From NCBI RefSeq assembly GCF_900114315.1, contig NZ_FOSQ01000003.1:372001-436000 (forward strand): a stretch of DNA of 64,000 bases. Reading direction: 5' to 3'. The position numbers and the translations under genes were made by a program. Under the pieces are notes generated by a model, which was not told the DNA's origin, did not search any database, and saw nothing but the letters and a program-made list of their open reading frames with translations. Shown in pieces: positions 34,730 to 45,111 of this stretch. This stretch comes from Falsiroseomonas stagni DSM 19981. Its GTDB lineage: Bacteria > Pseudomonadota > Alphaproteobacteria > Acetobacterales > Acetobacteraceae. Numbering within the stretch: position 1 is the first letter of the stretch; each line of letters begins with the position of its first letter.

Positions 34730-35560
34730 CTATTGATCAACTTTTTGAGCGTTGAGCACGATATAGCGTTTCGGGGTCTCGTCCATCGCTAATATTCGTG
34801 TGTATTGAATGTTTATTCGCCTATTCGTTCTGTTGGCATACTGGTCAAGACCCCAGCTGAATACTCCACCGTAATCGGCGAGAGCACGAGAGCTCATGCT
34901 AAACGCTACCGTCCTCCCTAGATCGAAATCAAACACCGATCCGTAGCCCGAGTTGGCGTTAAATGATGCGACGCTAAAATCTTTCTGCTTTATAGCATTG
35001 TCCTGATAATTGCTGTTTACATAGTCTTTGGTGGCTCTGTCCAAATTCGCAATCATGTTATAGCCGCCAAGCACGCTGATCTTGGCTGCGCCATTATCAA
35101 TCACTCTGTGCGTCTGTTTTATTGCTGGCTCAACCTTTGCTGTTAGCGCCTCAACGTCCCCCTCTCTCTTTTCTATAAGTGCCTGCAAGAGAGGCGTTGT
35201 TGGCGTGCTTGTGCGTCCAAGATTACGGTCAAACAACCGCTTGACCAAGTCTGTCAAGAAAACAGAACTGCTGACGCCTGCAAGCGCCGTCCCATAGTTG
35301 AAGGTTGCGATTGGGTCGTTAAGCAAAACGACGCTGAAGTCGGCGATAATGCTTCCTGGTTTCGGAATATTCGCGCGAACCGCTTGTCGGCCTGTAAAAT
35401 CGCCTCGCTGCCTAACAGTGCCGGTGTCAGCGAAATGAGCCGCAAGGGCGAGCGCCCACGCAAAGCCGGCTAGGGCGGTGTAGCCGTCGTATCCCTGAAA
35501 CTCGTGCCTATCTGAAGTGTCGCCACTAAGCTTTAGCTGAAAATCTGCTACTTCAACCAC
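34730..35560 (-). CDS. protein of unknown function in a low-GC two-gene operon
   Basis: The 276-residue soluble protein does not match a family I can name. It begins MVEVADFQLKLSGDTSDRHE and has FQGYDGYTALAGFAWALALAAHF, a predicted central helical segment with LIEKREGDVEALTAKVEPA, and a beta-rich C-terminal half with SVFDFDLGRTVAF. No catalytic motif stands out. It overlaps the upstream membrane-protein gene by eight bases. Codons ending in A/T are common, unlike neighbours, so the pair was probably acquired. A role as sensor or effector in a small defence cassette is possible but unproven. Confidence 0.75.
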   Translation of the reverse strand: MVEVADFQLKLSGDTSDRHEFQGYDGYTALAGFAWALALAAHFADTGTVRQRGDFTGRQAVRANIPKPGSIIADFSVVLLNDPIATFNYGTALAGVSSSVFLTDLVKRLFDRNLGRTSTPTTPLLQALIEKREGDVEALTAKVEPAIKQTHRVIDNGAAKISVLGGYNMIANLDRATKDYVNSNYQDNAIKQKDFSVASFNANSGYGSVFDFDLGRTVAFSMSSRALADYGGVFSWGLDQYANRTNRRINIQYTRILAMDETPKRYIVLNAQKVDQ

Positions 35561-36224
35561 TGCTCTTCGCGCTCCACTGAAGATGCTGGTATCTTCCAGA
35601 CGCTACAGTATCGATATAGCAACAGTCTGTCGACTGTAAAGTTAGTGCCTCCCTGGGGCGGGCAGCCGGGCGTTCGCCTTTCGATGTGCTTGCGGCGTAG
35701 ACTGCGAGAATGGCGGACCCCAGGATTAGAATTGCTGCGGCAATTTTTGCTGCGCGAAATGTCGTCTCGCCTGCTTTCACGCGCGCCCACTCTGCGCCGA
35801 GCAGTTCATGACACGCGGAAAGTAGCTGGGCTTCGAAATGTCTGATATTCTGAACGGTAAACAAATTCTCATCCCGCGCTATGAGATTGAAGCCTTCCAT
35901 GACCGACAATAAGTTGCGCGAGAGGCGATCTTTTGGAGCGATGCGCAGAAGAATATTAAAATTAGCTGTGTTTAATGCGACGTAAAGCGACCTCAGTGTC
36001 TCGATTTTTTTGGAATCATCAGAATATTTGGCATTCATTGCGTCATGGATAGCGTTTATGTGAGTCAGAAATATTGCCATATCGGCTCGTAGGGCGTCAA
36101 TCCAAGTCTGTCGAAAATCGGATATTTTCTGCTCTTTGCTGATAATTAGACCAATAAAAGTTATAGTCCCGGCGATAGCCGCTGCTCCGATTGCTCCCAA
36201 AGCTGCATCAGGTAGATTAATCAT
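35553..36224 (-). CDS. two-helix membrane protein of unknown function
   Basis: The 223-residue protein has a transmembrane helix at about 7-28 and another at 157-177, with a 130-residue helical cytoplasmic or periplasmic domain between (ISDFRQTWIDALRADMAIFLTHINA and the following helices). This two-helix design recalls pore-forming effectors of SLATT/2TM type in prokaryotic defence loci. It is the first gene of the low-GC operon and overlaps the second. I do not recognise a named family, and the effector idea rests on topology and context. Confidence 0.75.
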   Translation of the reverse strand: MINLPDAALGAIGAAAIAGTITFIGLIISKEQKISDFRQTWIDALRADMAIFLTHINAIHDAMNAKYSDDSKKIETLRSLYVALNTANFNILLRIAPKDRLSRNLLSVMEGFNLIARDENLFTVQNIRHFEAQLLSACHELLGAEWARVKAGETTFRAAKIAAAILILGSAILAVYAASTSKGERPAARPREALTLQSTDCCYIDTVASGRYQHLQWSAKSSG

Positions 36225-42778: not shown

Positions 42779-42992
42779 GGGGGTGCGGTGGGGTAGTTGT
42801 ATTCTATTTTTCGCCGAGATGCTTGCTGCCCGGTCATTGATGGCCACAAATCTGGTCGCCGTAGGGCGTATGTTACAGCCTATCGTCAGCTGTCGTTAGC
42901 CATTGCACTGCTGGCCGGGAGGTTGATGAGCTTTTTTTGCTTTCGGACTTAATGGCGGGGTAAAGATCTTAAATTTTTGTGAGGCGATAAGC
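42779..42992 (+). other. low-GC leader upstream of the reverse transcriptase
   Basis: This stretch of about 215 bases becomes AT-richer than its surroundings and holds no convincing gene. In several antiphage reverse-transcriptase systems (for example DRT2 and DRT9) a structured non-coding RNA sits in this position and serves as template, so this is where such an RNA would be expected. I see no strong hairpin by eye; RNA folding and covariance would be needed. Confidence 0.4.
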
Positions 42993-43127
42993 ATGGAGTT
43001 GGCGAGCATTATTTTCACGGCGGGTTCGTTGGAACGCGAGGCGTTGGTTCTTCGGCAATTCGAGTGGCGCGTTGAGATATCCAGCTTTTTTGGCAGGGCG
43101 ATTTGGCGCGGTGATTGCCGTGGATGA
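42993..43127 (+). CDS. possible 44-residue ORF overlapping the reverse-transcriptase start
   Basis: An ATG at 42993 is preceded by GAGG (42981-42984), a good ribosome site, and opens a 44-codon frame (MELASIIFTAGSLEREALVL then FEWRVEISSFFGRAIWRG) ending TGA at 43125-43127, five bases after the likely GTG start of the reverse transcriptase. It could be a small partner protein or a leader coupling translation of the enzyme. It could equally be chance. Confidence 0.3.
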   Translation: MELASIIFTAGSLEREALVLRQFEWRVEISSFFGRAIWRGDCRG

Positions 43128-44754
43128 GAAGGAAGATAAATCTCTTTGCCCATCAGCGGCTAGAATAATTAGCCTGATCGGGCGGGGCTACTTCCCAACC
43201 GAGTTGCCGCCACCGTTCACAAGTGCACGCTACGCAAAGCACGCCATAGCATTCACTGAACGATGGGATGGTCAAAAAATAAGAAAATTCTGGACGCGTC
43301 CGGAAAATTACAGTGTGCCTCGATATGGCCATGCTCGCCGCATGCTTTCTATTGTCAATCCAATTAATCAGCTTCATGTTTCTGATTTAATTGGAAAAAA
43401 TTGGCTCGAAATAAAAAAGAGAATTGCGCGGTCAACGATAAGCGAATTTGATCCGCAGATAGTTCTGGTGGGCAATACGCGCGCAGTGACGGGAGTTAAT
43501 TTTGATGGCGTGGCGCGTCGGCGCGCTGAAATCCTCGGCGCCTACGGTCGCTATGTAAGAACTGACGTTGCTCGATTCTATCCATCAATTTATACTCACG
43601 CGATCCCTTGGGCGATTTTGGGCAAAGAGTACGTTAAGGCGAATCAAAACAATAGCGATTTTAAAACCTCTTTCGGCAACCTTCTCGATAAAGCCGTCGC
43701 GGCTGGTCAGCAAGGGCAAACGGTCGGTATACCCATAGGTCCTGACACTTCGCGCATTGTCTCTGAGCTAATTGCATCAGAAGTCGAGGCAATCGCGCAT
43801 ACGCAAATTCGCAACCTAGAGCACCGCGCGGTGCGTTATGTTGATGATATGCTTATAGGGCTGCATGAGACCGAAACCCCTTCGGCTGTTTTGTCGGCGT
43901 TGTCCAATGCACTTTATGAGTTCGAGTTAGAACTGAACGCCGACAAAACTTCTACCCATGGAATAGGGGCCAGCCACTCACCAGAATGGATACATTACAT
44001 AAGAACATTTGATTTAAATCAGAAAAAATCACGCCAGCGAGACGATCTCGACTCTTATTTCGAACAAATATTCCATCTCGCTGATTCACACCCGAAGGAC
44101 AATGTTGTCCTATTCGCTGCGAAGCGCGCGGCTAGCTTTACCGTCGACCAAACTAACATGTCTCATCTTGTCCGATGGCTGCTTTACGCAGCGCGTCGAG
44201 CGCCTAGTTGTCTGAGCTTCATAGTTGAGCATTTGTCTGCCATTAGTGTGGAAGATTTTATGTCTGATAATGAGATTAAAGCTTATATCTTGCAACAGCT
44301 TCCCCGTAAGGCTGAAGCTGTACATACTCATGAGGTTGCGTGGCTTCTCTTTTGGGCTCGGGAGATGCGTTTGAGTTTGCCAAGTACTGTTATGGGGAAA
44401 ATTACGGATCTGCGTAGTTCGGTAGTTGCAATGCTCACTCTCGATCTAATGCAAAATAATCTCATTGCTGGCGAGATAGATATTTCTGCTTGGAGGGCGT
44501 CAGCCACTGCCGAAGGATTGCGTTCAGGGTTATGGCTCGTGGCCTATGAAGCTACAAAAAGGGAGTGGTGGCCCATGCGCCAAGCCTCTGGCTTCGTGTC
44601 CGGGCACCAATTTTTCGGAGATATTTGGGAAAGAAATATTTATTTCTACGATCCCGCCAAGAAAATTCGCAGCAAATCCAATTCAAGTTTTTCGCTAAAC
44701 ATAGATTCAGGGAGTGGCTTCAGCTTCGGTAGTTATCCAGATGTCAGATTGTGA
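43120..44754 (+). CDS. stand-alone reverse transcriptase of the antiphage unknown-group (DRT/Abi-like) type
   Basis: From GTG 43120 the protein has 544 residues. GRGYFPTELPPPF (about 21-33) and LSIVNPINQ (77-84) match the N-terminus of 'unknown group' and Abi-type reverse transcriptases. The polymerase motifs follow: D149 in YVRTDVARFYPSIYTHAIPW, TVGIPIGPDTSRIVSEL (201-217), RYVDDMLIG (239-247) with the active-site aspartates, and ELNADKTST. The last 260 residues are helical and could be HEAT-like. There is no maturase or endonuclease domain, no retron-type partner and no diversity-generating repeat. Many A/T-ending codons mark it as foreign. GTG at 43111 or TTG at 43072 are alternative starts; none has a clear ribosome site. 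Confidence 0.88.
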   Translation: MDEKEDKSLCPSAARIISLIGRGYFPTELPPPFTSARYAKHAIAFTERWDGQKIRKFWTRPENYSVPRYGHARRMLSIVNPINQLHVSDLIGKNWLEIKKRIARSTISEFDPQIVLVGNTRAVTGVNFDGVARRRAEILGAYGRYVRTDVARFYPSIYTHAIPWAILGKEYVKANQNNSDFKTSFGNLLDKAVAAGQQGQTVGIPIGPDTSRIVSELIASEVEAIAHTQIRNLEHRAVRYVDDMLIGLHETETPSAVLSALSNALYEFELELNADKTSTHGIGASHSPEWIHYIRTFDLNQKKSRQRDDLDSYFEQIFHLADSHPKDNVVLFAAKRAASFTVDQTNMSHLVRWLLYAARRAPSCLSFIVEHLSAISVEDFMSDNEIKAYILQQLPRKAEAVHTHEVAWLLFWAREMRLSLPSTVMGKITDLRSSVVAMLTLDLMQNNLIAGEIDISAWRASATAEGLRSGLWLVAYEATKREWWPMRQASGFVSGHQFFGDIWERNIYFYDPAKKIRSKSNSSFSLNIDSGSGFSFGSYPDVRL

Positions 44755-44808
44755 CCGAAGGGCAGCGAAACATTTATTTTTTGCGCGACTTCGAAGTCTT
44801 TCGCTAAA

Positions 44809-45111
44809 TCACCCTCGCCCCGCCGACAGCACCCCCCGCACCGTCTCCACTACCATCGGCACGCCGATGGCCTGCATCGCGCCGTCCCACACTTCCGCCA
44901 CAGCGATGACGGTTTCCGTCCCCGCCACCACGGGCAGCCCGTAGGCGGCGTCCAGTATTTCGGGGGATCGGCCCGCCGCCATTACCACCAGCGCGATGCC
45001 AACTGCCAAGGTGACGCCGCCCGCGCTTCGGGTGGCACTGTGGGGGGAGAAGTCGTCCGGCACGCCGCGGGGGGCGGGGGTGTCGGCGGTGTGGAGCCAG
45101 GGTTGGCGCAT
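44809..45111 (-). CDS. small hypothetical protein, possibly membrane-anchored
   Basis: The 100-residue frame has host-like high-GC third positions. Residues about 32-46 (GVTLAVGIALVVMAAG) could be a membrane helix; the rest (DAAYGLPVVAGTETVIAVAEVWDG) is of no family I know. It lies downstream of the MBOAT gene on the same strand, beyond the hairpin element. Coding status is supported by codon use only. Confidence 0.5.
   Translation of the reverse strand: MRQPWLHTADTPAPRGVPDDFSPHSATRSAGGVTLAVGIALVVMAAGRSPEILDAAYGLPVVAGTETVIAVAEVWDGAMQAIGVPMVVETVRGVLSAGRG

Follow-up and report, generated by a model that had tools for sequence, protein, structure and literature searches.

A DRT6 (UG12) reverse transcriptase gene in a single-gene, low-GC islet of Falsiroseomonas stagni DSM 19981

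The 64,000-nucleotide stretch of DNA analysed here (the window) carries a gene for a reverse transcriptase (RT) that belongs to the DRT6 (UG12) family, as judged by profile, sequence, fold and tree. We consider it probable that this single-gene islet encodes a defence RT that acts as a hexamer and synthesizes DNA without a template, primed from one of its own tyrosines, which probably lies near the C-terminus. A previous description of the window, made from the letters and their reading frames (the sequence-only reading), had pointed to a stand-alone, antiphage-type RT of the unknown-group (UG)/Abi kind in DNA atypical of the host; this was borne out, and horizontal acquisition is supported. 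Since the observation holds, the subtype is a known one and the proposed RNA leader is unsupported, the find is mostly ordinary.

The gene and its genomic site

The RT is encoded by a plus-strand open reading frame (ORF) of 560 codons that runs from TTG 43072 to TGA 44754. The candidate start codons are GTG and TTG, neither of them ATG. Judged by eye, the distance at which the nearest homologues start speaks for the GTG at 43120, and it is from this codon that the 544 residues of the sequence-only reading are counted. The frame is full-length and all motifs quoted in that reading were found in it (Table 1). D165, D258 and D259 were invariant among 83 aligned sequences, including the window's own. 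The RT is complete: no catalytic residue has been lost, and the fold is modelled with confidence over the full length.

Table 1. Features of the RT gene and its insert (positions in the window; residues numbered in the 560-codon frame unless stated otherwise)
Feature	Position	Strand	Remarks
drt6 (UG12 reverse transcriptase)	43120..44754	+	544 aa if started at GTG 43120, 560 aa if started at TTG 43072; PADLOC Drt6 518 bits, PDB 9wy8 phmmer 1.2e-72, Foldseek TM 0.92 on target
GYFPTELPPPF	residues 39-49 of 560		present in RT
FYPSIYTHAIPW	residues 169-180 of 560		present in RT
GIPIGPDTS	residues 219-227 of 560		present in RT
Motif A catalytic Asp, D165 of 560	43564..43566	+	invariant in 83/83 aligned sequences
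YVDD catalytic motif	43837..43848, residues 256-259 of 560	+	both Asp invariant, 83/83 aligned sequences
Helical C-terminal domain, about residues 305-535	43984..44676	+	model helices, pLDDT mostly >90
Tyr 555 of 560 (539 of 544), low-confidence C-terminal tail	44734..44736	+	candidate (putative) priming residue
Leader, 333 nt	42787..43119	+	conserved/structured RNA: no evidence (blastn, folding, Rfam)
Low-GC insert, about 2.03 kb	42787..44815		between cyclase-family gene and small ORF beside MBOAT gene; RT is the only large ORF

Judged by the homology of the flanks, the insert begins at about 42779/42787 and ends at about 44815/44818, position 42779 being the base after the stop codon of the cyclase-family gene. 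The gene has a GC content of 0.473, its leader one of 0.517 and the insert one of 0.480, versus 0.708 for the window, which agrees with the earlier view that the DNA is low in GC and atypical of the host. The largest other ORF wholly inside the insert has 85 codons for amino acids and lies on the minus strand (42896-43153); the insert holds no large mobility ORF, and no terminal repeats were evident at its ends. The host genome is high in GC, and the RT gene forms a single-gene islet within it.

At the same site, a genome of the same genus (G005) has a different low-GC cargo of 2.9 kb (L132:4888-7785). In this genome the left flank matches up to 42778 (838 bases at 92.1%), and on the right the match begins again at 44819 (4912 bases at 90.4%). 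The adjacent genes of its cargo, all on one strand, encode an adenine methyltransferase of the D12 class, a protein of 175 aa that by eye looks hydrophobic and has no family match, and a protein resembling DndB/DpdB. In two further genomes, G012 and G013, the left-flank matches end at 42782 and 42786 and the right-flank matches begin at 44857 and 44816, respectively; their flanks are on separate contigs and hence uninformative on any cargo, so that the variability of the site is drawn from G005. The RT gene was acquired as an insert at a site of variable content, as shown by this one other genome. The same chromosomal site thus holds different small low-GC cargoes in two genomes of one genus, one with a defence-type gene and the other bearing a methyltransferase.

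A second low-GC islet (GC about 0.49-0.50) is located at 34730-36224 on the minus strand of the window. It encodes a 276-aa protein with a DUF7946 match and a sub-threshold DUF7947 match, and a 223-aa protein whose N-terminus is hydrophobic by eye; PADLOC matched neither protein.

Family assignment and structure model

Drt6 was the best of the 69 PADLOC families matched by the RT, with 518.5 bits over profile positions 3-489 of 511. A phmmer search of the PDB placed 9wy8, entitled 'Cryo-EM structure of the hexameric DRT6', first with 248 bits, followed by UG15/DRT4 chains (1.7e-20, 76 bits). The NCBIfam scan of the RT returned no DRT6 match, and its Drt4 model (NF041749) reached 190 bits against a cut-off of 450. 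The sequence-only reading had considered that a place among the group II intron, retron or DGR enzymes would speak against its view. On the curated NCBIfam models the RT remained far under the cut-offs (30 of 300 bits for group_II_RT_mat and 27 of 235 bits for retron_St85) and no DGR family was listed, which speaks against such a place at the level of scores; the tree rows held no RTs of these three kinds.

An AlphaFold2 model built on 83 sequences had a mean pLDDT of 90.9 and a pTM of 0.90, with pLDDT values below 50 at residues 1-19 and 536-560 (of 560). Residues 305 to 520 were mostly helix, in line with the helical C-terminal half that had been noticed before; by its position and fold match this domain may be called alphaRep-like, a name taken from the literature. 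Foldseek ranked 9wy8 first (E 8.5e-33, TM 0.82 by query, 30% identity), then DRT4/UG15, and then AbiK and Abi-P2. The fold matches to DRT6, DRT4 and AbiK span nearly the whole chain, and those to group II intron, DRT9, DGR, DRT2 and retron RTs were far weaker.

The first scan of genome contigs gave no closer homologues of this RT, the scan of relatives matched 1 of 59 genomes, namely the window's own, and 7 of 398 genomes of the phylum were matched by the Drt6 profile at 1e-40. Some of these profile matches best fit other families: L005 fits Drt4, L006 and L007 fit AbiP2, and L008 fits Drt3b. A second scan of genome contigs, with the first alignment (A1), from which the best 80 of 376 relatives were kept, contributed to the sample; no homologue more than 60% identical to the window's RT was found in these scans. 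Five of 92 relatives (L048, L053, L075, L077, L089) were excluded for having no full-length frame from the start of the match, L104-L110 were left out as partial matches, and L021, L027, L037, L095 and L100 were left out of the second alignment (A2), being 94.6-100% identical to a row that was kept.

A quick tree of 97 rows was then consulted, in which Drt4 and AbiK are represented by one row each and the program flagged long outgroup branches. As the sequence-only reading had proposed, this phylogeny could be used to place the protein: the window's RT falls together with 9wy8 on a side of 88 rows, which a branch with 96% SH-aLRT support separates from the Drt4, Drt3b, AbiP2 and AbiK rows. Within this side it forms a five-row clade (support 100, long stem) with L012-L015, which are Sphingomonadales proteins and, at 57-60% identity, its nearest homologues among the best 80 of 376 relatives. 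With 30% identity to 9wy8, this clade is a deep and little sampled one within DRT6. The earlier suggestion that the RT may be of a new subtype therefore gives way to DRT6, on which PADLOC profile, PDB sequence, fold and tree concur.

In the literature, as far as the cited texts go, DRT6 is described as a single-gene system that is related to DRT4 and activated by ORF55, which is reported to activate DRT4 as well (PMC13213688, PMC13314766). UG RTs are divided into classes: template independence is described for those alphaRep-bearing Class 1 enzymes that have been studied, and the use of a non-coding RNA (ncRNA) for the Class 2 enzymes, DRT2 and DRT9 belonging to another class than the former (PMC13174585, PMC12632851). 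Fold and tree suggest that the window's RT is a Class 1 enzyme; in the sections available, neither paper on the classes names UG12, and PMC13174585 does not name DRT6 either.

Two other readings of the gene have to be weighed. It would be improbable for the RT to represent DRT4 (UG15), or a separate and unnamed Class 1 group, rather than DRT6. Two PADLOC models named Drt4 come next after the top-ranking Drt6 model, with 445 and 407 bits, and the long stem of the clade and its distance from the solved DRT6 fit a separate group. It should be kept in mind that PADLOC labels are imperfect: even for the 9wy8 stretch, a model named Drt4 gives a higher score (728 bits) than Drt6 does (604). Against this reading stand the more than threefold bit score of 9wy8 over the UG15/DRT4 chains, the first rank of DRT6 in Foldseek, and the position of the sole Drt4 row (L005, on a long branch) outside the 88-row side that holds the window's RT and 9wy8. 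That the gene is an inactive remnant of a defence island is quite improbable. The absence of a large mobility ORF from the insert, a start codon other than ATG, and a simple scan that found 0 sigma-70-like promoters versus a shuffle mean of 2.3 would all suit a remnant, but its full-length frame, its complete set of catalytic residues and its confident fold argue for an intact gene, and the frames of the four closest homologues, in which about 40% of the residues differ, are intact too. We therefore retain the reading as a complete DRT6 enzyme.

The labels of PADLOC call for care in other cases as well: PDLC02177 and PDLC02179, both named Drt4, outscore the Drt6 model on some DRT6 relatives, and PDLC02179 does so on the stretch of the solved DRT6 (9wy8).

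The leader and the neighbouring genes

The sequence-only reading had raised the possibility that the leader of the gene encodes an ncRNA, which in DRT2 and DRT9 provides the template. Such an RNA might serve the enzyme as a template or as a scaffold. The leader indeed lies inside the insert and has no large ORF on the plus strand, and Class 2 RNAs are described as residing in sequence that neighbours the gene (PMC13213688, PMC13174585). Nevertheless, we regard this proposal as very improbable. The leader had no blastn match at E 0.05 in 108 loci, and none in the 600 nt upstream of the gene in the four nearest homologues, although the RT genes align with 63-67% DNA identity in long pieces. An alignment of the five leader sequences gave no support for a conserved RNA, folding yielded a z-score of +0.94, the shuffled sequence being no less stable in 82 of 100 cases, and the Rfam search found no family at E values up to 1. 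Fold and tree neighbours of the RT are, moreover, Class 1 enzymes. Lack of conservation among close homologues had been named beforehand as the outcome that would count against the RNA, and this is what was seen among the closest homologues found.

The same was apparent when upstream sequences were compared by blastn across 166 pairs of homologues with more than 55% protein identity. Upstream sequence is shared by every one of the 6 pairs above 95%, but function and recent ancestry are indistinguishable at this distance. Among the 30 pairs at 80-95% identity, an upstream match is lacking in 18, confined to the 112 nt next to the first aligned residue in 7, and found further upstream in 5, two of these by one extra piece of 34 nt. 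A match is absent from 13 of 15 pairs at 70-80% and from 113 of 115 pairs at 55-70%. The sole internal control of this search is L059 and L078, where it did detect ORF-containing upstream DNA that is about 69% identical. A fast-evolving RNA may still lie in the window's leader, given that the nearest homologues found are 57-60% identical. The preferred reading is a DRT6 enzyme that works without a leader RNA.

Two observations were made alongside this comparison. L059, L078 and L093, which belong to one subclade, share upstream sequence, and directly upstream of DRT6 in each of them, at a distance of 7-40 nt, is a related membrane-protein-like ORF of 221-231 aa (L059:4283-4972, L078:4284-4979, L093:4281-4946). 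DRT2-like matches numbered 2 in 398 genomes, neither of them above the cut-off, plus 3 plasmid records with 51-52% identity.

The neighbourhoods of homologues, which the sequence-only reading had wished to see inspected for defence genes, agree with its view of a stand-alone RT. No family among 668 neighbour ORFs of 87 homologue loci occurs in more than 4 loci, and a partner gene was rejected on this ground. In three of the four nearest homologues (L012, L013, L014) a gene for a phage major head protein adjoins the RT gene on its downstream side; a DNA primase is encoded nearby in L012 and L014, HNH and small terminase (TerS) genes are found in L013, and in L015 the RT gene lies beside an integrase. 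These gene contents suggest that DRT6 of the window's clade may be carried by prophages or by capsid-bearing phage satellites.

On two rhizobial plasmids (L009:2099-7680 and L010:2099-7680), an RT gene of the DRT6 family lies downstream of a GajA-GajB (Gabija) pair and on the same strand, with 16 nt between the pair and its start. The Gabija families were scanned in L009, and L010 has the same gene order. This suggests a possible joint operon of the Gabija pair and the RT. The Gabija genes of L009 matched none of the neighbour ORFs of the 87 loci at 1e-10, and at 1e-3 there were two weak GajA matches of 100 residues.

A candidate priming tyrosine and comparison with known systems

By homology, the RT would form a hexamer of RT-like and helical-repeat domains. 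Its relatives suggest that it would synthesize DNA without a nucleic-acid template, starting from a tyrosine of its own, and that this synthesis would turn toxic upon phage infection, both the trigger and the abortive outcome being modelled on these relatives. In the available text of PMC13174585, the Class 1 alphaRep enzymes studied so far are template-independent and in some cases protein-primed. Priming tyrosines have been reported or implicated at Y44 of AbiK and Y61 of Abi-P2 and at Y666 of Drt3b (PMC13174585), as well as mainly at Y298 of AbiA and in the C-terminal tail of DRT9.

Conservation points to the C-terminal tail of the window's RT, where Tyr 555 is the candidate priming residue. 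Its alignment column, in a gappy region, holds Tyr in 76 of 83 rows. Tail counts were made on the 83 rows of A2 or on the 77 rows that remained after thinning. A tyrosine is present within the last 8 residues of 56 of 83 sequences, compared with 21.8 on average and at most 35 when the tails were shuffled 2000 times, and in 52 of 77 sequences of the thinned set, where 20.8 are expected. After the position of residue 526, a tyrosine occurs in 78 of 83 sequences, and 5 of 83 have no tail tyrosine. Other conserved tyrosines are Y174 (83/83) and Y492 (81/83), both in confidently folded parts of the model. Tyr40 (of 560) would make a poor universal primer, being phenylalanine in 20 of 83 sequences.

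The tails differ in composition: the fraction of Asp plus Glu is 0.03-0.12 in the five rows of the window's clade versus a mean of 0.26 in the 78 others, 20 of which are also below 0.2. A tentative and rather doubtful extension of our proposal is that the window's RT and the four Sphingomonadales RTs represent a branch of DRT6 in which DNA synthesis is primed by a C-terminal tyrosine carried on a short, acid-poor tail (GS..EYP-like). The free tail tyrosine would then serve as a swinging primer throughout DRT6, and the differing tail of this clade might give a DNA product or a trigger unlike that of the solved DRT6. According to the text available (PMC13213688), the product chemistry is less well resolved for DRT6 than for DRT4, and the conservation of the tail tyrosine offers a handle on how the DRT6 family primes; tail-tyrosine priming in DRT6 may already be in print.

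Compared with the solved DRT6/UG12 (9wy8), the window's RT is alike in its whole-length profile, sequence and fold match, in being a single gene, and in its motifs and helical half. A C-terminal tail with a tyrosine is likewise seen in L036, a tree row identical to 9wy8 over its aligned part. It differs in its 30% identity and own clade, and in the tail, which in this clade is short, has few acidic residues and mostly ends EYP-like. With DRT4/UG15 (9vdo, 9l9s) it shares the fold (TM 0.83 on 9vdo) and the stand-alone arrangement, and the untemplated synthesis of single-stranded DNA that the accessible text reports for DRT4 (PMC13213688) is what we propose for the window's RT; identity is 18-19%, sequence scores are lower, and the one Drt4 row lies on the other side of the tree. 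AbiK and Abi-P2 also combine an RT-like and a helical domain, and their protein-primed, untemplated synthesis, as described in PMC9508834, is again proposed here, whereas identity is 14-17% and their primers are N-terminal (Y44, Y61), that of the window's RT being probably C-terminal. The Class 2 systems DRT2 and DRT9 have the UG RT core in common with it, and C-terminal tyrosines are likewise the presumed primers of DRT9; unlike the window's RT, for which no conserved leader RNA was found, they need an ncRNA, and their fold similarity to it is low (query TM about 0.3).
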